Shown one piece after another: positions 17,895 through 64,000 of a stretch of DNA of 64,000 nucleotides (its first letter is position 1; each line of letters begins with the position of its first letter). Made by a program: the position numbers and the translations under genes. The notes beneath the pieces are model-generated. The model saw only the letters and a program-made list of their open reading frames with translations, was not told the origin of the DNA and did not search any database. This stretch comes from Calditrichota bacterium (GTDB lineage: Bacteria; CLD3): NCBI GenBank assembly GCA_008501735.1, contig QQUF01000007.1:43527-107526 (forward strand), written 5' to 3'.

Positions 17895-20800
17895 ATGTCA
17901 AAAAATAGATTTGAAAAAATTCATTTAATCGCTCAAGGTGTTTCGGGTAAAGTCCACAAAGCATTTGACAATGATTCCAAAAAGATTGTCGCACTTAAGT
18001 CTTTCCCTGATTTTCTGAATGACTCAGTAAGCATCACTGAAAGTATTCAGAATGAGTTTGGAATTCTCAAAGATTTGCATTCCGAATACTTTGTGGAAGT
18101 TCACGAAATTGCTCAAGATTCTAAGAATTTGTCACAAATTGTTTTGGAATTTATTGATGGTTCGCCACTAAAAGTTGCTTTCAATCTGGATAAAGCCTTA
18201 GAAACGAAACAAGTTTTTGTGCAAATTTTAAATGCTTTAGTTGAACTTGAGAAAGTTGGAATCATTCACGGAGATTTGAAGTCCGATAACATTTTAATTC
18301 AGAACCACAAAGTAAAAATTATAGATTTCGGTTTTGCACAGACTTTAGGCGGAAGAATTGACTCAAATTCTGTAAGCGGTACTTTGGAATACACTGCTCC
18401 TGAAAAATTTACTGGAGAAAACATCAGTTCGAAAGTTGATATTTATTCAATTGGAGTTTTATTTTACGAAATACTCACAGGGACAAACCCTTTCGCAGAT
18501 TCCTCTGTTGAAGCAATTATTGAAAAACATTTGAACCTTACTCCTAAACAAATGACGGAAATTAATTCTGAAATTGACTCTTTTTGGGAAAATGTAATTT
18601 TTGAAATGCTTGAAAAAGAACCTGCAAGCAGACCAAAAGCGGAAGAAATTTTACAAAAATATTTTCAAGATGTAAAATTGGAAAGTGTTGGAAATTTGGT
18701 TAAGCAATTTGAAAAAATTGAAGACGTTTTTGAGAAACGTGAAAAATTATTAGAACTTTTTGAACAAGTAAAAAATGACGAAAACTCAGAAGGTTTTGCA
18801 AACGTTACTTTTAACCTAAGCAAAGTTTACCAAAAATTAGGTAACTACGAAAATGCAATTGAGTTTGCGAAAAAAGCTTTGAAAGTTTCAGATGAAAAAA
18901 CAAAAATTGAACTTCTTTGTTTAATTGGAGTTTGTTTTTGGGCTTTGGAGAAACTTGAAAATTCAAATGATTACTTACTTCTTGCACGAAAAACTTCAGT
19001 CGAATCAACCCAAAACAAAAGTTATTTTCTCGGTTTAATTGAAAAAAACCTTGGGAATCTTTACTGCAAATTTTTAGACTTCAACAAAGCTTTTGAACAT
19101 TATAACACTGCTTTAGCAATTTTCATTAATGAAAAAAATACTGTTGAGCGTTACAATGTTTTGGGAAATCTTGGGCGACTCTGCTCAGAGATTTTTGATT
19201 TTGAAAAGGCACTTAGCTACTTAAATCAAATCAAAGACTACTTTGAGAAAATTGAAGATTTACGTCAACTTAGCACGACTCTTCTTAATATCGCAGTAAT
19301 TAACACTCAACTTTTGAAACTTGGAAATGCAAAAAATACTCTCGAATACGCTTTGCAACTTCATCAGAAACACGGCTTTCGCGAAGAGTCAACAAGAGAT
19401 TGGCTGATTCTTGGTTATGTTTGTGGTGAAATCGGCGAATTTGGAGTAGCAATAAAATATTTACAAAATGCACTTGAAGAGTACAAAGAACTTGACGACC
19501 AAGCAGGAATTCAAACTGCAAAACTTTACCTTTCACAAGTCTTCCAAAAAATTGGAGATTTTGAAGCCTCATCAGAAATTGCACTTTCGGAAACTGAATT
19601 TTTTAGAAAGGATTTGGAATTAGAATTTTTGCAAGAGGAAATAAAATTTAGCGATATTTTTAACTTAGAAAAAGTTGAAAAAGGAATTTCAGAAGCTCAA
19701 AGTGCTAATTTTAAAAATTTGGAAATTGATTTCAAGATTTTAAGAAGTGAACATTTTTTTCAAATTGAAGAATTTGAAACCGCCAAAGAATCCCTTCACG
19801 AGCTAATTAAAGAGACTTTGAGAATCAGTTACATAAGTGGAATGATTCGAGCTTCGTTTTTACTTTGTCGAATTTTGGAAAGTGAGGAACTTTGGAATGA
19901 GGCTTACAAAGTCCTCGAAAGAGTCATAAAAATCGTTACCAAAGAAGAATACTTTTTTACCGATATGCTTTTTTACCACTTCGGGAAAATTCAAAAAAAG
20001 ATTTTTTACCCTGACGCTGATTACTACTTAATCGAATCTGGAAAGGAATTTGAAAGAGTAAATTCTTTAATTCACGCTCAAAATCGTAAAGAAATTCACC
20101 GAGAAAGCCGTAGGGAAATTTTCAAAATTGAAGAAATTATTTCTGGTCCTAAAAACGAAAAAAGACGTGAATTTAGAAGAACAGAAGACGAGTATTACTA
20201 CCATTTCGGTTTACTAATGGAAATTAACAAAAGTATAAATTCTGAATTAGACCCGAAACGCGTGATGAAATTGATTATGGAAAAAGCGATTCTAATTACT
20301 GATGCTGACAAAGGTTTCATAATGATTCGTAACGCCGAAACTAATGAACTTGAATTTGTGGAATCTTACGGTTTTGAGGACGAAATTTTAAGTCTCAAAA
20401 AAGGTTCTGCACTAAGTACGACAATCACTTTAGACGTTTACAAAACTGGTCAAGCTTACCTAAAAAATCACGTGATTGGAACTGACAACTTCATTCAAGG
20501 TCAGAGTATCAAAAGGCTACAAATTCAATCAATTCTTTGTGTTCCGCTCAAAAATAAACGCTCAGAAGTCTTTGGTGTTCTTTACGTTCACAGCCAAACG
20601 ATGGGCAAGAAAGTCTCGGAAGTTAAGAAAAATATTTTGGTTGCGATGGCTGACCAAGTTTCGATTGCGATTGAAAATTCAAGGGATTACCAAAATTTAA
20701 AAGAAGAAGTTGAACTCCTAAAAACAGAATCAAAATTTACAGCTTTTGGAAATCTCATTGGGCAAAGTCCGAAAATGAAAAAGATTTTTTACATCATCGA

Positions 20801-21680
20801 CAAGGTTTCAAAAGGCGATTCAAACATTTTCATTAACGGTGAAAGTGGAACAGGAAAAGAAGTCGTTGCAAGAGTTTTACACCAAAAAGGTGATAGAAAA
20901 GACAAACCTTTCATCGCTGTTGATTGTGGAGCTTTGCCCGAAAATCTTTTAGAGTCTGAACTCTTTGGGCACAAAAAAGGAGCTTTTACGGGAGCTTACG
21001 AAGAACGAAAAGGTGTTTTTGAAGAAGCCGAAGGAGGAGTCATTTTCCTTGATGAAATCACAAACACAACTTTGGCTTTTCAGGCAAGACTTCTTAGAGT
21101 TTTGCAAGAAAGAGAAGTCCGAAGGCTTGGCGAAAATACTCCTCGCAAAGTGAATGTTAGAGTCATTGCGGCGACAAATAGAAATGTTAAAGAAATGGTG
21201 AAGAATGGAGAATTTAGAGAAGATTTGTTTTACAGGCTCTTTGTAGTTCCAATCGAAATTCCGCCTTTAAGAGAACGTGTCGAAGACATTCCACTTTTAG
21301 TTCAGCATTTTTTGACAAAATTCAACACTTCAAACGGAACACAAAAAACAATTACCAAAGAAGCTGTTACGGAATTACAAACTTTTCAATGGAACGGAAA
21401 TGTTAGACAGTTAGAAAATATTGTCGAGCAGATGGCGATTTTTTCAGAGGAGAAAATTACTACCAAAGATTTGCCGGAATTAATACGAGGAACAAAAACA
21501 AGAGTTGAAGCAGAAAGTTTTGCCGAAGACGGAAACCTAATTACTTTGGCAGAAGCACAAAGAAGGCACATCAGTTTTGCACTTTCCAAAGCAGAAGGCA
21601 AAATGACTTTAGCAGCAAAATTACTTGGAGTTAACCGCTCTACTCTTTACAAAAAAATGGAAATTCTTGGACTTAGGTAA
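17895..21680 (+). CDS. Ser/Thr kinase-TPR-GAF-sigma54 activator fusion protein
   Basis: A 1261-residue one-piece signalling protein with no membrane segment. It begins with a Hanks-type kinase domain (about 7-260): Gly loop QGVSGKV, ATP Lys in IVALKSF, catalytic loop HGDLKSDN near 125 (HGD in place of HRD, catalytic Asp kept), DFG and APE. TPR repeats follow at about 300-560, then a linker and a GAF domain (about 776-930). A sigma-54 AAA+ domain follows (about 952-1190) with Walker A GESGTGKE, an intact GAFTGA loop near 1029, and FLDEI. It ends in a Fis-type HTH (TLAAKLLGVNRSTLYKKM). The intact GAFTGA predicts real contact with sigma-54. Targets are unknown; the divergent BNR gene is a candidate. 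Confidence 0.9.
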   Translation: MSKNRFEKIHLIAQGVSGKVHKAFDNDSKKIVALKSFPDFLNDSVSITESIQNEFGILKDLHSEYFVEVHEIAQDSKNLSQIVLEFIDGSPLKVAFNLDKALETKQVFVQILNALVELEKVGIIHGDLKSDNILIQNHKVKIIDFGFAQTLGGRIDSNSVSGTLEYTAPEKFTGENISSKVDIYSIGVLFYEILTGTNPFADSSVEAIIEKHLNLTPKQMTEINSEIDSFWENVIFEMLEKEPASRPKAEEILQKYFQDVKLESVGNLVKQFEKIEDVFEKREKLLELFEQVKNDENSEGFANVTFNLSKVYQKLGNYENAIEFAKKALKVSDEKTKIELLCLIGVCFWALEKLENSNDYLLLARKTSVESTQNKSYFLGLIEKNLGNLYCKFLDFNKAFEHYNTALAIFINEKNTVERYNVLGNLGRLCSEIFDFEKALSYLNQIKDYFEKIEDLRQLSTTLLNIAVINTQLLKLGNAKNTLEYALQLHQKHGFREESTRDWLILGYVCGEIGEFGVAIKYLQNALEEYKELDDQAGIQTAKLYLSQVFQKIGDFEASSEIALSETEFFRKDLELEFLQEEIKFSDIFNLEKVEKGISEAQSANFKNLEIDFKILRSEHFFQIEEFETAKESLHELIKETLRISYISGMIRASFLLCRILESEELWNEAYKVLERVIKIVTKEEYFFTDMLFYHFGKIQKKIFYPDADYYLIESGKEFERVNSLIHAQNRKEIHRESRREIFKIEEIISGPKNEKRREFRRTEDEYYYHFGLLMEINKSINSELDPKRVMKLIMEKAILITDADKGFIMIRNAETNELEFVESYGFEDEILSLKKGSALSTTITLDVYKTGQAYLKNHVIGTDNFIQGQSIKRLQIQSILCVPLKNKRSEVFGVLYVHSQTMGKKVSEVKKNILVAMADQVSIAIENSRDYQNLKEEVELLKTESKFTAFGNLIGQSPKMKKIFYIIDKVSKGDSNIFINGESGTGKEVVARVLHQKGDRKDKPFIAVDCGALPENLLESELFGHKKGAFTGAYEERKGVFEEAEGGVIFLDEITNTTLAFQARLLRVLQEREVRRLGENTPRKVNVRVIAATNRNVKEMVKNGEFREDLFYRLFVVPIEIPPLRERVEDIPLLVQHFLTKFNTSNGTQKTITKEAVTELQTFQWNGNVRQLENIVEQMAIFSEEKITTKDLPELIRGTKTRVEAESFAEDGNLITLAEAQRRHISFALSKAEGKMTLAAKLLGVNRSTLYKKMEILGLR

Positions 21681-49742: not shown

Positions 49743-52700
49743 ATGGAAAATTTTCTCCAAAATGATTACAGCCTTGAACAACTTAAAAGATTGGCTTTCT
49801 TTGATGAGTTAACTGGTGTTTATAACCGAAGATATTTCAAAGAAAGATTTGCAGAAGAATCTCAAAGAGCAAAAAGATACTCTCGCTCTCTTTCAATAAT
49901 GATGATTGATATTGACCTTTTTAAAGCAATTAACGATACATTTGGACATTTGGTCGGAGATGAAATTATTAAAAAGGTCGCAGAAGTTCTTAAAGAAGCT
50001 GTGAGAGATACTGACATTGTATTCCGTTATGCTGGAGATGAATTTATCGTATTGCTACCTGAATCTTCAAAAGAAGGTGCAATGGGAGTTGGCGAAAGAA
50101 TGGTTACTTTAGCAAAAGAAAGTAAATTGCACAGTAACGGCAAAACTGTTACATTTGGATTATCAGTTGGAGTTGCAAATTACTTAGAAGATACAAATAA
50201 TATTGATGAAATTTTACATTTAGCAGACGTTGCACTTTATAATGCAAAAAGTGCAGGTCGTGGAAGAGTTTCTGGTAAAGTTATAAAAAATAATGCTGAA
50301 ACCGACCCAACCAAAAGCAATGTAATTGGCAGAGAAAAAGAACTTAAAACTATCACTAAAATTTTTGAACAAGTAACAAAGTCAAATGGGCAAACTGTAA
50401 TTTTAAAATCAGAAGTTGGAATGGGAAGAACAACTTTTCTATTTGATTTTAAAGAAAGTTTAAAGAATAGATATGATTTTACTGTTATGCGAGGACAAAG
50501 TTATAAAGAAAACATTCCTGTTTCTTACCAACCAATTCGAGAAGCATTAAACAAATTTGTTGAAGCCTACGAGTCATTATTTTTTGAAGTTGTTGAAAAA
50601 CTTTCTATTGAACAAAGAGCAGAAATTGCAAGACTTTTACCAAATTTGCGAAATGAATTATTAAAGTCCGAAAGTGTTGACATCTCTAACTCAGATGAAT
50701 ACAAATTATACAATTCGGTTTACAATTTGATTAAAGGTTTGTCTGAAATTAACAATGTGATTTTTGTAATTGAAGACATTCAGTGGGTTGATGATACAAC
50801 TTTGAATTTAATTTCTTACTTAGTTCGGAATCTTAACGACAAACGAGTTTTGATTTGCATTACGGGTACTAATTCTGATAAAATTAATGATTTCACAATT
50901 GGACTCTCAAAACGAAATACTCACGTAAGTTTTATCAATTTATTGCCTTTAACAAAAGAAAATACAAAAAAATACCTAATAAGAACTTTTGAAAACCAGA
51001 CAATTGAACCAAAATTAATTGAAAGGTTTTATGCACTTACTAGTGGAGTTCCTGTTTTTGTAAAAGAACTTGCATCTTATTTTTTAACTCACCCTGACAA
51101 AGATTTAAATTCTTTAATTTCGCTTGATGACGTTCCCTTGACTATCAAAGAAATTGTCTTCAATCAGCTTTCAACCTTAGAAAAGGATTTGGTCAACATA
51201 CTTGAAATTATGGCGATTATTGGAAAAGAAACTTCATTTGAAATGATTTCGGAAGTTTCAGAAATTGAAGAAAATTATCTATTTGACCACTTAGAATCAC
51301 TGATAAAACTTGATTTAATTGTAGAAAATGTTCGAGGCAAAGAAGAATATTTTTCATTCAAAAATCTAATGATTCGAGACGTTATTTACCAAAGAAGTGT
51401 GAGACTAAAAAGAAAAAAATATCATTTTAAGATTGCTAATGTTATTGAAAAATTGAATTATCGTTCTTTGGAAAAATATTATGAAGAACTTGTAATTCAC
51501 TACTACTCTGCAAAAGTTTGGGACAGAACTTGTGAGTATGCTTTAAAAGCAGCAAAAAAATCCCGTGAAATTTATTCAAATGAAATCTCACTAAAATTTT
51601 TAGAAATAGCAAAAGAAACAATTGAAATTAGAATTGAAGATGAGCCTAATTACTCTACTCTTTTAATCAAACTCTTTGACGTTGTCTCAGAACACGAGAA
51701 AGTTTTAAATATTTTAGGGAATCTTAATGCCCAAAAAAACGATTTAGATCAAATGATGGAAATCGCTAAGAAACTTGATGACAGAGCCAAAATTTCAGAT
51801 GTCTATCTCAAACTCTCAAACTACTACTTGAATAAAGGTGAACTTGACAAACCTGGAATTCTTGCAAGTATGGGCTTAAAAACTAAACAAGAATTGGGTG
51901 ATAAAAAAGGTGAGGCAATTGCACTAAGAATTCTTGGGAATATTTGTTATCGACAAAGACTTGAACCTTCAGCTTTAAAATATTATGAGCTTTCTTTACA
52001 AATTGCAAAAGAACTTAACGATGAAAAACTTATTTCGGCGGCAATTGGCAATATTGGTAATATTCATATAGAAAATAATGATTTTGAAAAATCTCAAAAA
52101 TGCTATATAGATTCCTACGAATTGAATAAAAAATTAAATGACAAAGTCGGAATGATTATTGTTTTACAGAATTTAAGTATGCTTGAACTTGATTTAGGTA
52201 ATCTTGAAAAAGCTCTTTCTTTAAGTAATGAATCCTTAAAGTTAAGTCGTGAACTTGGAAAATTAAAAGCAGAATCAGACACACTTTCACTCTTGGCTCA
52301 AATTTATTTAGCAATTGGAGATTTTGCAAATTCATTGAGTTACTTAGAAAAAGCTTTGACTATTTCAAAAGAAATTGGAAATTTTGTAAATGAATTCTCT
52401 CAAAACTTAATTTTTGTTTCAATTTTTATAGCACAAGAGAAGTATTTTGAAGCTGAAAAAATCTTAGAGAACTTTGATGGGTTTGCAATTTCAAACGAAT
52501 CGCAAATTTTGATTTTTAATCTAAAACTATCTTGGATAGAATTATTTTTTGAGCAAAAAAAGTATGAGCAATCTTTAGATATTGTGCAAGTTTTGCTTCA
52601 AGACCGTAAATTCACAATTAACAATTCACAGCAAACTATTCTATATTATTACTTAGCAAAATTACACTACTTCTTAGAAAAAAAAGAAGAAGCAAAAGAA

Positions 52701-52961
52701 GCCTCAAAAAAGTTGCTTGAGAAGTTATCAAAAACCATTCGATTTAATAATATTGACGAACTATTTTTTATTCATAAACTTTACCAAAATTCAAATGACG
52801 AAAATGAAAGAGAATTAGCCTTAAAATATTTAGCAATTTCAAACAAAATTGTAAACGAGACTGCTGAAAAAATTTATTCTAAAGAGTTGAAAAAGCTTTT
52901 CTTTAAAAAGAAAATCAATTCTGATATTTTGCGAGAATTCGAAAAAAAATCTAAAAGTTAG
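49743..52961 (+). CDS. GGDEF-ATPase-TPR signalling protein
   Basis: A 1072-residue soluble protein. The GGDEF domain is at about 14-185: MIDIDLFKAINDTFGH, active-site AGDEF (97-101) and an intact product-inhibition I-site RDTD (88-91) exactly five residues before it, so c-di-GMP synthesis is plausible. An AAA/STAND-type NTPase follows (about 195-560) beginning VIGREKELKTI. Its Walker A reads SEVGMGRT (223-230), with Ser for the first Gly and Arg for the Lys, while Walker B FVIEDIQWVDD is intact. About ten TPR-like units cover 600-1000. TPR sensing may control c-di-GMP output. It resembles the ATPase-TPR part of the kinase-activator at 59472. Confidence 0.88.
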   Translation: MENFLQNDYSLEQLKRLAFFDELTGVYNRRYFKERFAEESQRAKRYSRSLSIMMIDIDLFKAINDTFGHLVGDEIIKKVAEVLKEAVRDTDIVFRYAGDEFIVLLPESSKEGAMGVGERMVTLAKESKLHSNGKTVTFGLSVGVANYLEDTNNIDEILHLADVALYNAKSAGRGRVSGKVIKNNAETDPTKSNVIGREKELKTITKIFEQVTKSNGQTVILKSEVGMGRTTFLFDFKESLKNRYDFTVMRGQSYKENIPVSYQPIREALNKFVEAYESLFFEVVEKLSIEQRAEIARLLPNLRNELLKSESVDISNSDEYKLYNSVYNLIKGLSEINNVIFVIEDIQWVDDTTLNLISYLVRNLNDKRVLICITGTNSDKINDFTIGLSKRNTHVSFINLLPLTKENTKKYLIRTFENQTIEPKLIERFYALTSGVPVFVKELASYFLTHPDKDLNSLISLDDVPLTIKEIVFNQLSTLEKDLVNILEIMAIIGKETSFEMISEVSEIEENYLFDHLESLIKLDLIVENVRGKEEYFSFKNLMIRDVIYQRSVRLKRKKYHFKIANVIEKLNYRSLEKYYEELVIHYYSAKVWDRTCEYALKAAKKSREIYSNEISLKFLEIAKETIEIRIEDEPNYSTLLIKLFDVVSEHEKVLNILGNLNAQKNDLDQMMEIAKKLDDRAKISDVYLKLSNYYLNKGELDKPGILASMGLKTKQELGDKKGEAIALRILGNICYRQRLEPSALKYYELSLQIAKELNDEKLISAAIGNIGNIHIENNDFEKSQKCYIDSYELNKKLNDKVGMIIVLQNLSMLELDLGNLEKALSLSNESLKLSRELGKLKAESDTLSLLAQIYLAIGDFANSLSYLEKALTISKEIGNFVNEFSQNLIFVSIFIAQEKYFEAEKILENFDGFAISNESQILIFNLKLSWIELFFEQKKYEQSLDIVQVLLQDRKFTINNSQQTILYYYLAKLHYFLEKKEEAKEASKKLLEKLSKTIRFNNIDELFFIHKLYQNSNDENERELALKYLAISNKIVNETAEKIYSKELKKLFFKKKINSDILREFEKKSKS

Positions 52962-55510: not shown

Positions 55511-58500
55511 TTATTTCAACAAAATCATTTTGTTAGTTTTTGTGAAATTTCCTGCAGAAATCTTGTAGAAGTAAACTCCACTTGAAACTTGTTTTCCTTC
55601 TTTGTTAGTTCCGTCCCAATCAACACTGTAAGAACCTTGGTGTTGAAAATCATTTTTAAGCTCTTTCACAAACTCACCCAAAATATTGTAAATCTTAAGA
55701 CTTACTTTTGTGTCTTTAGCGAGTTGGTAAGAGATTGTTGTTGTCGGGTTAAAAGGATTTGGGAAATTCTGAGCTAACTCGTAACGCTTAACTTCTTGAG
55801 TTTGAAATTCAAAAAGAACACTTTGAGACATTTCGTTGTGGCTTGTTTCAAGTCCGTTAGTTTCTACGTCAGAAATTAAGTAAGTATAAAGTTCACCATT
55901 TTGTAATTCTGAGTCGTCAGTGAAAGAGTAAAAAGTTTCTACGGAAGTGTTTCCTTGTCCTAATAGTTCAGTATGAGTTTTGTAAGAGCCAATTTTTACA
56001 TAGTCTGTAGATTCAGTTTTTCTGTAAAGATTAAATCCTTCGTTGTCTTTTTCAGAGCCTGTTGCCCAGCTAAGATTTATAGAATTTTCAATTTGACGAG
56101 CTTGGAATGAATCCAATTCAACAGCTAAAGAAGCATCTACAAAACCAATTGTAATCTCAAAAGACTTAGCTTCATTGATTGAATTTGTCTTTGAAGGACC
56201 TGAAGGACTTGAAAGAAATGCAAGTGGCAAAAGAGCGTTTAAAGTATTTCCAAATGGATCAAAAGTTGTTGAAAGGCTTGACCAAGTTGTAACTTCGGGT
56301 TCACGAATATGCACTATTGCATTGCTTGGACTATCTAATACGTCTAATAAAAGTGAAATATCTAATAGAAGATGAGGTGGATTTGATGGAGGTGTAGCAA
56401 AGTCCATACTTAAACCCCAAAATTGCTCTATAGGAGAAAATCCAGTTTGTAAAGTTCCTGTTGGTGTTTCTAAGATAGACTGAAGATTAACTGTTCCAGA
56501 AGTATTTATTCCTGAAAAAGTCATATCTACTCCTGTATCCTGATTGTTTTCATTAAAACTTACTGTTCCGTCACCAGAAACTGTTTGTGAAATTTCTCCG
56601 CTACCAAAAGCATTTGTAGAATATATGTATGCTGAGCCTGAACCTTCTCCTCCGTCATCATTTCCATAAGCACCAACAATTGAATTGTATTCGCCCATAC
56701 AAACAGAAATACCGAATGCATCTCCACCAGCGGCATCATCAGCAGTAATAATTTTTGTTTCAGACCAAGTTGCTCCACTTCTTGCAAAGATGTAAGCTGA
56801 ACCGTTAAAGTTATAAGGAGAAGTTTGTTTAGCCGCTCCGACAATCGCATAATCACCTCTAATAGAAACTGAATTACCAAATAGTCCCTTGTAACCTATA
56901 TCACTTGCAGTTAATTTGGTTTGTTGAGACCAGGAAGTTCCATTTCTATTAAAAATATAAGCTGCTCCTGCTCTATAAGTTGCTCCTGCTCCGTGAAGCT
57001 CAGTTCCAACAATTGCATAATCACCGGAAATTGAAACTGTCCTGCCTAAAAAGTCAGAGGAACCTAAATCACTTGGAGTAAACTTTGCTTGTTCAGTCCA
57101 AGAAGTTCCACTTCTTACAAAAATATAAGCTGCGCCTGAACTACTTGCAATGTCATCATCACCGTCAGCTCCAATAATTACATAATCACCATCAATGGAA
57201 ACTGATTTTCCAAAATAATCATAGCTATCACCATCGCTTGCACTTAGAATCGCTTGTTCAGTCCATGAAGTTCCATTTCTAAAAAAGATGTATGAAAATC
57301 CTCTATCTGTGTCAGAAATCGTATTATCAGCTTTACGTGCTCCAACGATTGCATAATCTCCATCAATTGAAACTGTCGAACCAAATTCATCCCCATATCC
57401 TGCGTCACTTGCAACGAGTTTTGCCTGTTCAGTCCAAGAAGTTCCATTTCTGACAAAAATGTAAGCTGAACCTGAGTTACTTCCATCGTCATCATTTTTG
57501 TAAGCTCCAACAATTGCATAATCTCCACTTATAGAAACTGCCCAACCAAAACGATCATCTGAAGCAGCATCACTTGCTGTCAGTTTTGCCTGTTGAACCC
57601 AAGAACTTCCATCATGATAATAAATGTAAGCAGCACCTGCATTACTTCCACCTTCGTCTTCATAGTAAGCTCCAACAATTGCGTAATCGCCATCAATTGA
57701 AACAGATTTACCAAAAGTGTCACCTGCTTCTGCATCTAAAGCAACAATCTTTTCATCACTTGCTTGGTAAGAATTAAATGAACGTGTATAAGGATTTTCT
57801 CCGCCATCAGAAGCATAAAAATAAGCAGAGCCTGAGTTACTTCCTGCATAATCATTTCCTAAAGCTCCGACAATTGCATAATCTGCACTGAGGGAAACCG
57901 AATTACCGAATTTATCGCCTGCTACTGCAGAATCTACAGTCAATTTTACCTGTTGCGTCCAAGAAGTACCACTTCTATTAAAAATATAAGCTGAACCTGA
58001 ATTTAATCCGTCGTCGTCATCAAGATATGACCCTACAATTGCATTATTGCCATTTATTGAAACAGAAAAACCAAATTGGTCATGTGCTTGAGCATCATTA
58101 TGAACTAATTTTTCTTGTTCAGTCCAAGAAGTACCACTTCTATTAAAAATATAAGCTGAACCAGAATTAATTGCTGTATCATCGTCTTGGTTTGCTCCAA
58201 TAATAACATAATCTCCATTTATAGAAATCGCCACTCCAAAGTTGGAACCTGCCGCAGCGTCCGAAGCAAGGAGTTTCGCTTGTTGAGTCCATGAAGTTCC
58301 ATTTCTATTAAAAATATAAGCTGAGCCTGAAGAAAATCCAGCGTCACTATTTTCAAAAGCTCCTACAGCTGCATAATTTCCACTTATGGAAACTGCCCAA
58401 CCAAATTGGTCACCTGCATCGGCATCATTAGCAGTTAGTTTCGTTTGCTGTGTCCACGAAGTTCCGCTTCTGACAAAAATGTAAGCAGAACCTGAGTTAG

Positions 58501-59020
58501 TTCCGTTATCATCATTTTGGTCATCTCCAATTATTGCATAATCTCCATTTATAGAAACTGATATTCCAAAATTGTCTAAAGTGGTTCCATCATTATTAGT
58601 TAGTTTCGCTTGTTGTGTCCACGAAGTTCCGCTTCTGACAAAAATGTAAGCAGAACCTGAGTTACTTACGCCATCATAATTTTGGTTAGCTCCAACTACT
58701 GCGTAATCTCCACTTATGGAAACTGATGTTCCAAAATTGTCTAAAGTGGATGCATCATTAGCAGTTAACTTCGCTTGTTGTGTCCACGAAGTTCCACTTC
58801 TCACAAAAATGTAGGCAGAGCCAGAGTTACTTCCATTATCATCATTTTGGTCAGCTCCAACGATTGCATAGTCTCCATCAATTGAAACTGACGTACCAAA
58901 TTCATCATCAGCTCCAGCATCAGCGGCAACAATTCTTTCTTCATATTCTGCAAAGCAGTTTGTAAAAATACCAAAGCTTAGTGCTAAGGTCGGGATAAGA
59001 GTCTTTGTGAAATTTTTCAT
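55511..59020 (-). CDS. Secreted double seven-bladed FG-GAP propeller protein with T9SS sorting domain
   Basis: The frame is open to 59062, but the ATG at 59020 starts a clean signal peptide (MKNFTKTLIPTLALSFGIFTNCFA) and has AGGA upstream, so about 1169 residues are expected. Fourteen tandem repeats of about 55 residues follow, with core FG-x-SVSI-x-GDYAIVGA...GSAYIF-x-R-x-GTSW-x-QQAKL. A longer, different linker after the seventh repeats the N-terminal phrase (ERIVAADAGADDEFG versus EKIVALDAEAGDTFG), giving two seven-bladed integrin-alpha-like propellers. Asp-rich loops suggest calcium binding. A low-complexity beta region, an Fn3-like part and a sorting domain (LAQNFPNPFNPTTTI to NKMILLK) complete it. 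Probably a surface adhesin (inferred). Confidence 0.85.
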   Translation of the reverse strand: MKNFTKTLIPTLALSFGIFTNCFAEYEERIVAADAGADDEFGTSVSIDGDYAIVGADQNDDNGSNSGSAYIFVRSGTSWTQQAKLTANDASTLDNFGTSVSISGDYAVVGANQNYDGVSNSGSAYIFVRSGTSWTQQAKLTNNDGTTLDNFGISVSINGDYAIIGDDQNDDNGTNSGSAYIFVRSGTSWTQQTKLTANDADAGDQFGWAVSISGNYAAVGAFENSDAGFSSGSAYIFNRNGTSWTQQAKLLASDAAAGSNFGVAISINGDYVIIGANQDDDTAINSGSAYIFNRSGTSWTEQEKLVHNDAQAHDQFGFSVSINGNNAIVGSYLDDDDGLNSGSAYIFNRSGTSWTQQVKLTVDSAVAGDKFGNSVSLSADYAIVGALGNDYAGSNSGSAYFYASDGGENPYTRSFNSYQASDEKIVALDAEAGDTFGKSVSIDGDYAIVGAYYEDEGGSNAGAAYIYYHDGSSWVQQAKLTASDAASDDRFGWAVSISGDYAIVGAYKNDDDGSNSGSAYIFVRNGTSWTEQAKLVASDAGYGDEFGSTVSIDGDYAIVGARKADNTISDTDRGFSYIFFRNGTSWTEQAILSASDGDSYDYFGKSVSIDGDYVIIGADGDDDIASSSGAAYIFVRSGTSWTEQAKFTPSDLGSSDFLGRTVSISGDYAIVGTELHGAGATYRAGAAYIFNRNGTSWSQQTKLTASDIGYKGLFGNSVSIRGDYAIVGAAKQTSPYNFNGSAYIFARSGATWSETKIITADDAAGGDAFGISVCMGEYNSIVGAYGNDDGGEGSGSAYIYSTNAFGSGEISQTVSGDGTVSFNENNQDTGVDMTFSGINTSGTVNLQSILETPTGTLQTGFSPIEQFWGLSMDFATPPSNPPHLLLDISLLLDVLDSPSNAIVHIREPEVTTWSSLSTTFDPFGNTLNALLPLAFLSSPSGPSKTNSINEAKSFEITIGFVDASLAVELDSFQARQIENSINLSWATGSEKDNEGFNLYRKTESTDYVKIGSYKTHTELLGQGNTSVETFYSFTDDSELQNGELYTYLISDVETNGLETSHNEMSQSVLFEFQTQEVKRYELAQNFPNPFNPTTTISYQLAKDTKVSLKIYNILGEFVKELKNDFQHQGSYSVDWDGTNKEGKQVSSGVYFYKISAGNFTKTNKMILLK

Positions 59021-59067
59021 TTTTGAAATCCTACTAATTAGATTTTTATCTTTTTTCTGCATTTATA

Positions 59068-59084
59068 GTCAAATATAATGCCAG
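59068..59084 (-). promoter_or_regulatory. Sigma-54-like promoter of the FG-GAP protein gene
   Basis: On the minus strand the sequence reads CTGGCATTATATTTGAC: exact TGGCA -24 core, GG-N10-G spacing kept, and -12 element TTGA instead of TTGC. The predicted start is near 59057, giving a 37-nt leader before ATG 59020. The same bases contain TATATTTG, which fits the Bacteroidota housekeeping -7 element, so a sigma-70-type reading is also possible. Confidence 0.4.
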
Positions 59085-59138
59085 AATGGCAAGTAGCTAA
59101 TAAACAACATCTTACCGAATTTTGCATAAATTCTCTTT

Positions 59139-59246
59139 TTTAGGCATTTCACCTAAATATTATTTGATTCGTCACCTTAAGTATTTATTTATCATAGAAT
59201 AAGGAGTATTTTAGGCGAATTGCCTAATTTAGGCAGTTCGCCTAAA
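59139..59246. promoter_or_regulatory. Three palindromic sites TTTAGGC-N5-GCCTAAA, likely activator binding sites
   Basis: Site 1 59139-59157 (TTTAGGC-ATTTC-ACCTAAA, one mismatch), site 2 59211-59227 (TTAGGC-GAATT-GCCTAA), site 3 59228-59246 (TTTAGGC-AGTTC-GCCTAAA, perfect 7-bp arms). Centres of sites 2 and 3 are 18 bp apart, and site 1 is 71 bp from site 2. Sites 1 and 3 also share the following AATATT-x-TTTGA, so they are about 30-bp direct repeats. Relative to the predicted FG-GAP start they sit at about -91, -162 and -180. They are bracketed by the FG-GAP gene and the kinase-activator gene. Confidence 0.6.
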
Positions 59247-59471
59247 TATTTTTTGAAAAAAATTTGTAATTGTTTTTTTATAGAAAATTTTTAGTAATTG
59301 AAACCCAGTTTGCATAACACTTGATTTCATTTAAAATGTGCTCGATAAGAACACCCCTCTTAATTTCTTCTACTAAATAAATTGATAATTTAAAATTTAT
59401 AAATTTCTGCGGGAATAGGTTTCTCTATATAAAACTATCAAATATGAATCGACAGGAGCAAATTTAAATTT
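59247..59471. other. Remaining intergenic sequence downstream of the kinase-activator gene
   Basis: The gap 59021-59471 is 451 nt in all. Beyond the promoter and palindromes, this AT-rich part shows no gene. A 12-bp palindrome AAATTTAAATTT at 59460-59471 abuts the stop codon of the kinase-activator gene. I see no strong terminator, so transcription of that gene could run into the FG-GAP gene. Confidence 0.5.
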
Positions 59472-62400
59472 TCAATGAATTTTAATGTTGTGTTTTTTGA
59501 GTAATCGATCAAGACGTTTGTTGTCTATTCCTAACTCTTTGTATGTCTTTTGAAGGTGATTGTTGTTGCGCTTTAGACTTTCAAGAATCATTTGCTTCTC
59601 TACAAAACTAAGTCTCTCGTTAAGTTTAGTAAACTTATCCAAACTACTTGGAATTTCGGATTCAAATGTCGTTTCCTTTTCAACGACATTTACTTTTCGA
59701 GGAATTTGAAATTCAAAATCTGATGCTTTTAAAGGCGATTTATCTTTGGATTTCAAAATTGCTTTGGCTAAGGAGTTCTCAAGTTCTCGAATATTCCCGC
59801 TCCAATTCCTCTCACAAAGTAGATTCAAGGCTTCACTTGTAAACCCTGTTATATTTTTGTTGGTTTTAGCTTTTAGTTGATTCAGCAAATGGTGAGCAAG
59901 AAGTGGAATGTCTTCTTTTCTTTGACCTAAACTCGGAACTTTGATTTTTAAAACATCTAATCTGTGAAAAAGGTCTTCCCTGAAATTACCTTTATTTACT
60001 TCTTCTTTCAAATCTCTGTGAGTCGCTATAATAATTCTAATGTCAACTTTTATAGTTTCCTTTCCACCAACTCTTGTAATTTCTCTTTGTTGGATTACTC
60101 GAAGAAGTTTTGCTTGAATATCCAAACTTAGTTCTGCTACTTCATCTAGGAATAGCGTTCCTGAATTGGCTTTTTCAAATTTTCCGATTTTAGTGGAAAT
60201 TGCTCCTGAAAAAGCTCCTTTCTCATGCCCGAAAAATTCGCTTTCAGCTAACTCCTTTGGAATTGCAGAGCAGTTCACCGCAACAAAGGGTTTGTTTTTT
60301 CTTGATGAAAATTGATGTAATGCATTGGCAACAAGCTCTTTACCAGTTCCTGTTTCGCCGTAAATATAAACAGTAAAGTCAACTTTTGAGGCTTCTTCAA
60401 TTTGTTTATAAACTTCCTGCATCTTAGCACTGTTGCCTACGAAGAGTCCTAGATTTTGAATATTTGATTCAACTTTCATTTGCTTTGCTTCATTTTGTCT
60501 TGCTAAAACAGGAGACAAAATTTTTGCAAACGTATTTACTTTTTCAAGGTCAGTTTCTTCAAAAAAGCCTTTTTCAATTTTAGTTCTGTCTAAATAAAGA
60601 GCACCTATAATTTTTTCGTCAACTTTGAGAGGAACAGCAATAACTGACAGAAATATCTTGCTCATTACACTTTGATTTTCTTTTAGATCAGGTATTTCTA
60701 GGACATTTTTTAATAGTATTGGTTCGTTTCCTAAAATAGCTTTTTGGAGAACAGTTTTTGAAAAGTCAATCTCCTCTTCTTTAAGGTTTGGTGAGATTGC
60801 ACAAACTTCGAAGTCACCTTTATTTTCAAGAATAATTTGACAACCGTTTGAATTGGTTTCTTTTTCCAAAAACCTTAACAGTTCTTCAAAAACTGTATCG
60901 GGATTCATCCAATTTGTTAATGATGAAATAATTTCAGGATAGATTTCTGTTGAGCGGAATTTAAGGTTTTTTAATTCTTCTATATTTTTTTTAAACTGAA
61001 ACATTGGTTTGGAATCATAAAGTTTCTCAAAACTTTCTATTGTTTCATTTGTTAGTTTTTGAAAGTCAAATTCCGAATCCAATAAAAGTGTTTGTTTGTA
61101 TTTTGACGCAATTTTACAAATTTCAAAATCGGTAGAAGTAATTGCAATTTTTGCTTTGTACTTTTCTTTTAATTCAAATAATTTTTTAAATGCTTTCTTT
61201 TTATCATAAAGTTCAAAATCTATTTTTAGCTTGTAAAGGTTTAAGAAATACTGAATAACAGGAATAGTTTTATCAATATATTGGAAAGCTTCATTGCAAG
61301 ATTTTTCAGCATTTAAAAAATCTTTTAAAGCAAAATAAGCCTTAGTCTTTGATAAAGAAATTTTTGAAAATTTATCTACCATTTTTAATTTCTTCATAAT
61401 CGGAAGTGCTTTATCCGCTAATTCAATGGCTTTTTTATTTTGATTACTCTCAACCAACATTAAACAATAATTTGAATAAAGATAGGTCAGGTTAATGTCA
61501 TTATTAGTTTGGTTTTCACAAATTTTAATTTGCTCAAGGTAATATTTTTCACTTTGACCATAATCTCCGATTGCATTGTAAATAATTGCTAATAGTATTG
61601 AAGCTTCTGTGAATATTTCTTCATCATTAATTTTTATCGCTAATTTTAAATTTTGTCTTAAAGACTCAATGGCTTCTAAATATTTTCCATTAATATAAAA
61701 CGCTGTTCCAATACCTGCATTTGCTCTTAAATATCCTTTGGGGAAACCAATAATTTCAGATAATTTTTTTCCTTCAGTATAACATTTTACACCTGATTTA
61801 AAATTTCCTTCTTTGATATAATAAGTTCCAAATTTTGTATAAAACATTATCAAATCAAAATTATTACCAAGGCTAGTTAGTAAATCCACACTTTTCATAA
61901 AATATGTTTCAGCTTTTTTGCTACTTTCTCTTAAAGAGTAAATTTCACCCAATAAAACATAAGCACCTGACAATATTTCTTTTGCATCCATTTTTTTTCC
62001 AATTTGTAATGCTTTTTCGATTGTTGAAATTGCAATATCAAATTTTCCTTTTGATTTGAAATTCTCCCCTAACTTAGTATAGACCAACCCAATTTTATTT
62101 TTTAGATTTAACTTCTCATAAATTTCTAATGCTTGGTTTAAATTTTTCTCTGACTCTTTATAATTTTTTTCAGCCAAATAAACTGCACTTAAACTTTCGA
62201 ACAATTCAGCTTTTAATATGTCTGATTCTTGAGATAGATTTATTGCTTTTTGATAGAGTTGAATTGTAAAATCCAAATCTCTTCCTAAGAAGTTCTGTGC
62301 AAATGCTAACTCTTTGTAAACTTTAGTTTTAATAGCTCTGTCACGATTACTTTCAACCAATTTGTATGCTTTAAGGAAATAAGTTTCCATTTTAAGTAAA

Positions 62401-64000
62401 ACTTGTTGGGACTTTGCAATTTCTCCAACTTTAAGGCAAAACTCCAATGCTTTTTTCTTCGCATTAGCTTCAAAATAATGATTAGCAAGTTCTTCCAAAA
62501 CTTCCGATTCTTCATAATTATTTTCCAAAAAAACAGCTATTTTTCTGTGCAATGTTTTTTTGGTAGATTGTTTGATAGTATTTGAAATACTTGCTCGAAT
62601 TGCATCATTGAGGAATTCAAAAATATCTTCCTCAGACTTTTCTAATATACCTTCCGAAAGCACACTAGTAAGTTTACTTTCTACTTCATTTACTTCTAAA
62701 GAAAGAACTCCGGCAACTACTTTGCTTGTAAAATGCTTACCTAAAAGTGAACCAACTTCCAAAAGTTTGATTAAATTTTTCGGAAGAAAATTAAGACGTT
62801 CTCCGACAACACTTTGAATTGACTTCGGAAGTTTGAACTCCGAAAAAGATTCTTCTCCTAATTCCCAACTACCTTCACTTTTATTAAGTTTTTTAGTCTC
62901 TAAAAGATGGTACATCAATTCTTGAATAAAAAGAACATTACCACCTGTTCTCTTTAAAATCTCAACACAAAATCTTGTGTTAACAGGATCAATTTTGCCA
63001 AACATTTTTGTCAAAAATTCTCGAACTTCTTCTAATGTGAATTTCTCAATAGTTAAGACTTCAACTTTCGAGAACTCAGAATTAAAAGTTTTATGGAAAT
63101 CTGATATATCGTTTTCTTCACCTCTGATTGCCCCTGCAACTAAAATTGTTTTGTCTGAACAACTTCTTATCAAGTAACCTAAAAATTTAAGGCTCTCTTC
63201 ATCAATCAATTCCAAATTATCAAAAAAGAATACAAGAGTTGTGTTTTCTTTCTGAATATTTTGAAGAAATGTTACAAAAGATTCAAAAAGTCGCAACTCC
63301 GAATCAATTCCTTCAATAGGCGGAATTTCAGGTAATTTTTCAAAAAACAATTCTTTTTCAATTTGTGGTAAAATCTTTACTAAATCTCTTCCGAAAATTC
63401 CGATTTTCTCTGCTTTTTCTTTAGACGAAAGATTATGTAAGTTTTCAAGGGCTTTGGAAAGAATAATTTGTAAAGTCTCAAAAGAGTTTGAGTTTTGTCT
63501 GCACTTTGTATCAAAAACTATTGTTGAGTTTTGAGGTAAGCCAAGTCGAAACTCCTTCCATAATTTCGTCTTTCCTACTCCTTGCTCTCCGCAAATTAAA
63601 ATTGTTTTTAGTTTTCCATGTGATGCCTCTGAAAAGATTTTGTTTAATTCAGTAAACTCTTTTCTTCTTCCTACAAATCCTGGGGTTAATAGAAAATTTC
63701 CAATAGTTTCCAAATCTTCCACTTCCCCTTTTTTTAAAATAGTATTTAAGATTTTGGAGACTTCTTGGGCAGATTGGAATCTGTCATCCGGATTTTTTTT
63801 GAGAAGTTTAGAAATTACAGTGTTCAAAACTTCCGGTAAATCGGGAAAAAACTGTTTTGGTGAAATTAGCGGCGTTCTGATGTGAGCAAGTGCTATTTCT
63901 GCCAAAGAATCTCCTTCAAAAGGAACTTTTCCACAAACCAGTTGGTAAAAAAGAACTCCAAGTGAGTAAAGGTCGCTTCTGTGGTCAATCTTTGCTGAAT
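59472..64000 (-). CDS. Ser/Thr kinase-ATPase-TPR-GAF-sigma54 activator fusion (N-terminus outside window)
   Basis: The frame runs through the window edge: codons above 63905 read ...DHRSDLYSLGVLFYQLVCG, the C-lobe of a Hanks kinase, so the apparent TTG start at 63905 is internal. More than 1500 residues are seen. Order: kinase C-lobe (64000 to about 63750); AAA/STAND ATPase with GFVGRRKEF, intact Walker A GEQGVGKT (about 63570) and Walker B FFFDNLELID; many TPRs (about 62500-61100); GAF (about 60950-60500); sigma-54 AAA+ domain with GETGTGKE (about 60350), GAFSGA (Ser variant of GAFTGA) and FLDEV; and a divergent C-terminal HTH (LQKTYKELGIDNKRLDRLLKK). It probably activates nearby sigma-54 promoters, including that of the FG-GAP gene (inferred). 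Confidence 0.88.
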   Translation of the reverse strand, partial: SAKIDHRSDLYSLGVLFYQLVCGKVPFEGDSLAEIALAHIRTPLISPKQFFPDLPEVLNTVISKLLKKNPDDRFQSAQEVSKILNTILKKGEVEDLETIGNFLLTPGFVGRRKEFTELNKIFSEASHGKLKTILICGEQGVGKTKLWKEFRLGLPQNSTIVFDTKCRQNSNSFETLQIILSKALENLHNLSSKEKAEKIGIFGRDLVKILPQIEKELFFEKLPEIPPIEGIDSELRLFESFVTFLQNIQKENTTLVFFFDNLELIDEESLKFLGYLIRSCSDKTILVAGAIRGEENDISDFHKTFNSEFSKVEVLTIEKFTLEEVREFLTKMFGKIDPVNTRFCVEILKRTGGNVLFIQELMYHLLETKKLNKSEGSWELGEESFSEFKLPKSIQSVVGERLNFLPKNLIKLLEVGSLLGKHFTSKVVAGVLSLEVNEVESKLTSVLSEGILEKSEEDIFEFLNDAIRASISNTIKQSTKKTLHRKIAVFLENNYEESEVLEELANHYFEANAKKKALEFCLKVGEIAKSQQVLLKMETYFLKAYKLVESNRDRAIKTKVYKELAFAQNFLGRDLDFTIQLYQKAINLSQESDILKAELFESLSAVYLAEKNYKESEKNLNQALEIYEKLNLKNKIGLVYTKLGENFKSKGKFDIAISTIEKALQIGKKMDAKEILSGAYVLLGEIYSLRESSKKAETYFMKSVDLLTSLGNNFDLIMFYTKFGTYYIKEGNFKSGVKCYTEGKKLSEIIGFPKGYLRANAGIGTAFYINGKYLEAIESLRQNLKLAIKINDEEIFTEASILLAIIYNAIGDYGQSEKYYLEQIKICENQTNNDINLTYLYSNYCLMLVESNQNKKAIELADKALPIMKKLKMVDKFSKISLSKTKAYFALKDFLNAEKSCNEAFQYIDKTIPVIQYFLNLYKLKIDFELYDKKKAFKKLFELKEKYKAKIAITSTDFEICKIASKYKQTLLLDSEFDFQKLTNETIESFEKLYDSKPMFQFKKNIEELKNLKFRSTEIYPEIISSLTNWMNPDTVFEELLRFLEKETNSNGCQIILENKGDFEVCAISPNLKEEEIDFSKTVLQKAILGNEPILLKNVLEIPDLKENQSVMSKIFLSVIAVPLKVDEKIIGALYLDRTKIEKGFFEETDLEKVNTFAKILSPVLARQNEAKQMKVESNIQNLGLFVGNSAKMQEVYKQIEEASKVDFTVYIYGETGTGKELVANALHQFSSRKNKPFVAVNCSAIPKELAESEFFGHEKGAFSGAISTKIGKFEKANSGTLFLDEVAELSLDIQAKLLRVIQQREITRVGGKETIKVDIRIIIATHRDLKEEVNKGNFREDLFHRLDVLKIKVPSLGQRKEDIPLLAHHLLNQLKAKTNKNITGFTSEALNLLCERNWSGNIRELENSLAKAILKSKDKSPLKASDFEFQIPRKVNVVEKETTFESEIPSSLDKFTKLNERLSFVEKQMILESLKRNNNHLQKTYKELGIDNKRLDRLLKKHNIKIH

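Follow-up and report, generated by a model that had tools for sequence, protein, structure and literature searches.

Regulator, promoter region and propeller gene at the end of a contig

The window analysed here, a stretch of 64,000 nucleotides from a Calditrichota bacterium, ends in two minus-strand genes separated by a 451-nt intergenic region. The upstream gene encodes a sigma-54 activator (hereafter R) and the downstream gene an FG-GAP propeller protein with a T9SS tail, while the region between them holds three palindromic putative operators and a predicted -24/-12 promoter, as follows.

59472..63998, minus strand: R, sigma-54 activator gene, 5′ end lost at the contig end (Pfam, motifs)
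~63992-63765, minus strand: R kinase C-lobe, fragment residues 3-78 (Pfam)
~63677-63162, minus strand: R AAA_16/STAND (Pfam)
~62321-61509, minus strand: R TPR (Pfam)
~60902-60516, minus strand: R GAF (Pfam)
~60440-59943, minus strand: R sigma-54 AAA+ (Pfam; GAFSGA)
~59615-59475, minus strand: R C-terminal Fis-type HTH (alignment with paralogs)
59228..59246, no strand: putative operator farthest from the promoter, TTTAGGCAGTTCGCCTAAA, exact TTTAGGC-N5-GCCTAAA
59210..59228, no strand: middle putative operator, TTTAGGCGAATTGCCTAAT, one mismatch
59139..59157, no strand: promoter-nearest putative operator, TTTAGGCATTTCACCTAAA, one mismatch, centre ~66 nt upstream of the -24 GG
59069..59083, minus strand: predicted sigma-54 -24/-12 promoter TGGCATTATATTTGA, TGGCAT-N5-TTGA, transcript start predicted at ~59058-59057
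59029..59032, minus strand: Shine-Dalgarno AGGA, 8 nt ahead of the ATG at 59020 (sequence)
55511..59020, minus strand: FG-GAP beta-propeller protein, 1169 aa, 14 FG-GAP_2 repeats (Pfam, NCBIfam)
59020-58949, minus strand: predicted signal peptide of the propeller protein (inspection and paralogs)
~55765-55523, minus strand: T9SS type A sorting tail of the propeller protein (TIGR04183)

The domain set given for R in the first-pass annotation was borne out, with Pkinase, AAA_16, TPR, GAF and Sigma54_activat recognized by Pfam and the C-terminal HTH placed by alignment with paralogs, one of which (C24:25511) matches the Fis-type profile PF02954. The activator domain scores 245 bits against PF00158 and retains both Walker A (GETGTGKE) and GAFSGA, and R falls below the NCBIfam equivalog cut-offs for NorR (364.5 versus 476) and NifA (345.6 versus 529). 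Because the window stops at the contig end, the 5′ end of the gene is missing and only the C-lobe of the kinase is present. Complete paralogs have the whole kinase domain, including the G-loop, the lysine and HRDLKPxN, with DFD replacing DFG, and catalysis by the kinases of this family is therefore uncertain. At window position 64000 the assembly breaks inside R at a 127-nt exact repeat: its terminal 127 nt recur unchanged as the first 127 nt of contig C13, and that contig itself opens inside such a regulator gene, the pattern expected where an assembler breaks at a repeat. Ends that fall within regulator genes of this kind occur on at least six contigs. The genome has a single copy of RpoN (PF04552, 8e-56). 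One gene away from the cassette lies a 1072-aa GGDEF-AAA_16-TPR protein (49743-52961, plus strand) with a STAND/TPR sensor of the type seen in R; its paralog at C57:41006-44170 is likewise one gene from a kinase-sigma54-type gene.

The target had been described as an FG-GAP protein with a T9SS tail, and both the 14 FG-GAP_2 repeats and the tail (TIGR04183, 39.4 bits against a cut-off of 23) were recovered. With a signal peptide, a sorting domain and the T9SS translocon protein SprA present in the genome, the propeller protein is predicted to be T9SS type A cargo. Its longest ORF begins at 59062, upstream of the predicted transcript start at ~59058; the signal peptides of paralogous proteins, which share MKxFTKTLxPTLALSFGIFTNCFA, and the AGGA at 59032-59029 make the ATG at 59020, and not 59062, the likely start codon. 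From the moderate AlphaFold model (pLDDT 72, pTM 0.45; best match integrin-alpha propellers) we relied only on the all-beta, integrin-alpha-like propeller repeats.

Three TTTAGGC-N5-GCCTAAA palindromes had been reported at 59139-59246. Their positions hold, with one site exact and two carrying one mismatch each. Allowing up to one mismatch, the 4.14-Mb assembly contains exactly three copies, all in this region, and a blind search of the intergenic region for a palindrome repeated three times returned the same three sites, with a score attained by none of 150 dinucleotide shuffles (z = 4.9). The -24/-12 element assigned to the minus strand in the first pass was located at 59083-59069 with the exact GG-N10-G spacing and was matched in 0 of 300 shuffles of the region; the next base is A rather than C, as in most sister cassettes. 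The predicted start of the transcript near 59057 and the ATG at 59020 agree with the earlier reading of a 37-nt leader.

An expanded family of cassettes

The first reading treated this locus as a self-contained single module. It is instead one among about a dozen paralogous cassettes in this genome, with one more in a sister genus; in each, a giant Ser/Thr kinase-STAND-TPR-GAF-sigma54-HTH regulator is accompanied by a promoter region and by genes for secreted proteins, most of them T9SS-sorted. Around 20 proteins in the genome have a PF00158 domain within an open frame of more than 1,000 aa, and a subset of them sits in T9SS-propeller cassettes on contigs C1, C5, C10, C13, C24, C38, C43, C47 and C50. 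The usual order, on one strand, is regulator, intergenic region and then one to several T9SS genes of either the FG-GAP or the YWTD/LDL-receptor class B type (PF00058); the exceptions are C50 and C1a, where the only nearby regulator sits downstream of the target. More distant relatives of the regulator (C48, C55) likewise precede large secreted proteins. Among five complete regulators, the kinase (60–79% identical, mean 68%) and the sigma-54 domain (mean 58%) are the most conserved parts, and the TPR block (25%) and HTH (36%) rank among the least conserved, a pattern to be expected from diversification of input and output around a fixed core.

Five tandem FG-GAP T9SS genes (G000:C38:684-14590) each have their own -24/-12 element and GTAC-type operator set, and the last two promoter regions are near-identical, pointing to recent tandem expansion. 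A 314-aa protein that retains no more than the sigma-54 domain and HTH (G000:C1:5401-6345), either a remnant of the regulator or a short form of it, is encoded downstream of T9SS genes, and the operator of these genes matches the HTH group to which it belongs. The regulator frame at G000:C47:16157-19714 stops within the HTH recognition helix (..TSRRRFANFN*) and is possibly a frameshifted or decayed copy.

Cassette promoter regions usually have two or three copies of a palindrome specific to the locus, which were read first by eye and then by the blind search with 150 shuffles per region.

Window: TTTAGGC-N5-GCCTAAA, beats all 150 shuffles
C1a: TGTAAGG-N4-CCTTACA
C5: TGTTACAAATTGTAACA
C24a: TGTAACAATTNGTTNCA
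C50: TGACACAATTTGTGTCA
C47a: AATAGTC-N5-GACTATT
C13: TGGCTCT-N5-AGAGCCA
C10: TGTATGA-N5-TCGNACAG-like, attained by 2/150 shuffles
C38b: AAAACGTNACGTTT-like, attained by 1/150 shuffles
C38a: TGTAC-N8-GTACA, recognized by eye

Seven of 15 cassette regions outscored every shuffle in the blind search and two more (C38b, C10) stood at 1 and 2 of 150, while none of 16 control intergenic regions, which were those at hand and not a random genome sample, fell below 5/150. The search was not significant in the other six regions (C24b, C38a, C47b, C48, C55 and the sister-genus region), and no clear operator triplet was found in C24b or C48. The C24b region (G000:C24:30569-30871) contains a 64-nt perfect inverted repeat with GGGTCTAGAGTGAACCC in both arms that may be an operator pair, a terminator or both. 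Genome-wide searches with up to one mismatch placed the C5 operator at exactly three sites, all at C5, and the C47a operator at its home locus only; the C1a operator has exact copies only at home, plus a single one-mismatch site elsewhere. The promoter element itself is shared: TGGCAY-N5-TTG[AGT] is present in 14 of the 15 cassette regions and in 0 of 16 controls (~0.01 expected), a count that includes the widening of the last position to T after C47a had been seen and that is 11 with A or G alone. For the nine cassettes called blindly, the promoter-proximal operator has its centre ~65–90 nt upstream of the -24.

Outside this genome, the layout is retained in the sister genus and the operator sequence is not. 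One genome of the same family encodes a single close regulator, 44% identical across 847 residues, and behind it come genes for a lipoprotein-like product, an outer-membrane-type product and a T9SS protein. The promoter region of this cassette contains TTGGCACATTACTTGA, together with three TGCCTTNCNACAAGGCA-like sites picked out by eye that the blind test did not find significant; the TTTAGGC operator is absent from that genome. The matches listed for the class's other family included no comparable cassette, and a related-locus scan of genome contigs with the regulator returned only two distant sigma-54 proteins. Matches to TTAGGC-N5-GCCTAA in more distant genomes occurred singly or scattered, one near ATP-synthase genes and another next to genes of respiratory type, and were taken as chance. 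A second kinase-sigma54 protein of 1261 aa, encoded in the window (17895-21680, plus strand; C1:61421-65206), has a C-terminal end very similar to one in the sister genus (G001:C41) and, unlike the expanded cassette family, has apparently been kept vertically as a single gene.

HTH–operator covariation and alternative explanations

Operator similarity follows the HTH of the regulator. Across the nine loci called automatically, identity over the last 48 residues correlates with operator similarity (Mantel r = 0.51, p = 0.001–0.002; leave-one-out p 0.001–0.031; partial r given the sigma-54 domain, 0.53), whereas identity of the sigma-54 domain in the same nine regulators does not (r = 0.00, p = 0.49). 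With hand-called sites included (11 loci), the HTH correlation is r = 0.42 (p = 0.004), and the STAND, TPR, GAF and sigma-54 blocks do not track the operators (p 0.14–0.70). These statistics are post hoc and cover 9–11 loci. Pairings are also visible by group: HTHs with QV/QI-N/H-R (C5, C24a, C50) go with ACAA..TTGT-type cores, and KRLDRLLKKH HTHs (window, C47a) with TAGNC-N5-GNCTA. An 11-residue recognition-helix segment as the sole predictor was set aside (substitution-weighted r = 0.14, p = 0.15), the signal needing the whole HTH. In the C38 array, alignment of the promoters of the five T9SS genes (two near-identical) leaves only the GTAC-type palindromes and the -24/-12 conserved, the rest having diverged. 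This footprint and the HTH covariation favour R as the protein that would bind the palindromes.

The sites could instead be occupied by a repressor or activator unrelated to R, such as a dimer that responds to metal or stress, with the sigma-54 neighbour playing no part there. TTAGGC-type palindromes presumably resemble operators of several dimeric regulators, and a binding protein cannot be named from sites alone; yet every cassette has a different palindrome beside its own regulator, operator similarity tracks the HTH of that regulator and none of its other domains, and a separate regulator would be needed at each locus, with none lying between R and target in the mapped regions. We regard this explanation as unlikely. 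Still less probable is that the HTH–operator match is a by-product of duplication of whole regulator-promoter-target units, the palindromes being co-inherited with no need for binding by R. The cassettes are indeed paralogous and some promoter-proximal regions align across loci (C24a/C5, C1a/C38a), but within these regulators the sigma-54, STAND and TPR domains fail to track operator similarity, the C38 copies kept their palindromes while the flanks diverged, and the C24a/C5 alignment spans promoter and leader, not operators. It is scarcely credible that the palindromes serve the mRNA of the upstream regulator as hairpins or terminators: they are inverted repeats downstream of the R stop codon, and the C24b repeat is terminator-like, but two to three repeats of one short-armed 17–19-bp palindrome, 65–240 nt upstream of the -24/-12 and absent elsewhere in the genome, do not form a terminator pattern.

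With R as the binder, the repeated cassettes, the HTH covariation and the conserved C38 sites indicate that R very probably activates its neighbouring gene through the palindromes. The first-pass proposal that the adjacent activator binds these sites and fires the propeller gene thus gains strong comparative support from cassettes, covariation and paralogous footprints; its labels of a kinase-driven switch, given the DFD motif in related kinases, and of an adhesin are conjectural.

Proposed mechanism and relation to known systems

We propose that R is a giant cytosolic protein with a PknK-like front (Hanks kinase, STAND ATPase, TPR sensor) and a NorR/NifA-like back (GAF, sigma-54 AAA+, Fis-type HTH). 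R would bind its three private palindromes, whose centres lie 66 to 155 nt ahead of the -24, and, on a trigger acting through its TPR/GAF/kinase part, would remodel RNA polymerase-sigma54 at the TGGCAT-N5-TTGA promoter, turning on the downstream gene for the secreted, T9SS-sorted FG-GAP protein. Sister cassettes would do the same with other palindromes, diverged HTHs and different T9SS propeller genes, of the FG-GAP or the YWTD/LDL-receptor type, and each would form an insulated input-to-surface-protein switch. Judged from sequence comparison, this reading of the window as one cassette of an expanded family, with R switching its neighbour via private operators, is in our view highly probable.

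How duplicated transcription factors avoid cross-talk is an open question for which distant comparisons are usually needed. A single genome with about a dozen paralogous activator–operator pairs of apparently differing specificity, each beside its putative target, offers an HTH–operator code that can be read directly. Similar switches can probably work in parallel without cross-talk thanks to their private operators. We lean, with less assurance, towards an orthogonal family that arose by duplication, in which the kinase/sigma-54 AAA+ core was copied around a dozen times while TPR and HTH diversified alongside private operator triplets, giving each T9SS propeller set an independent input. The cassettes suggest how a bacterium could control its secreted propeller repertoire one at a time and, as a natural set of apparently orthogonal activator–operator pairs, they are candidate orthogonal sigma-54 parts. 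Searches of the open-access literature found no account of this architecture or of activators of this type governing T9SS genes, which is weak evidence for novelty.

Sigma-54 often controls the cell exterior (PMC3162934). Activators of the NorR/NifA type share with R the GAF, AAA+ (GAFTGA) and Fis-type HTH domains, and with the cassette the several palindromic upstream sites before a -24/-12 promoter of an adjacent gene; R differs in its ~1000 extra N-terminal residues (Hanks kinase, STAND ATPase, TPR array), its many paralogs with their own operators and its T9SS propeller targets. PknK-like Hanks kinases (kinase-STAND-TPR) and MalT-type STAND regulators resemble R in following a kinase with AAA_16 and TPR, presumed to be ligand-gated, but act on a separate regulator or carry a LuxR-type HTH, whereas in R these parts share one polypeptide with an entire sigma-54 activator. 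Bacteroides polysaccharide utilisation loci likewise have many paralogous local regulators, each for an adjacent cell-surface gene set; there, the regulators are hybrid two-component or ECF-sigma/anti-sigma systems working with SusC/SusD, whereas the cassettes, in which no SusC/SusD was noticed, pair a sigma-54 activator with targets that have T9SS sorting tails.
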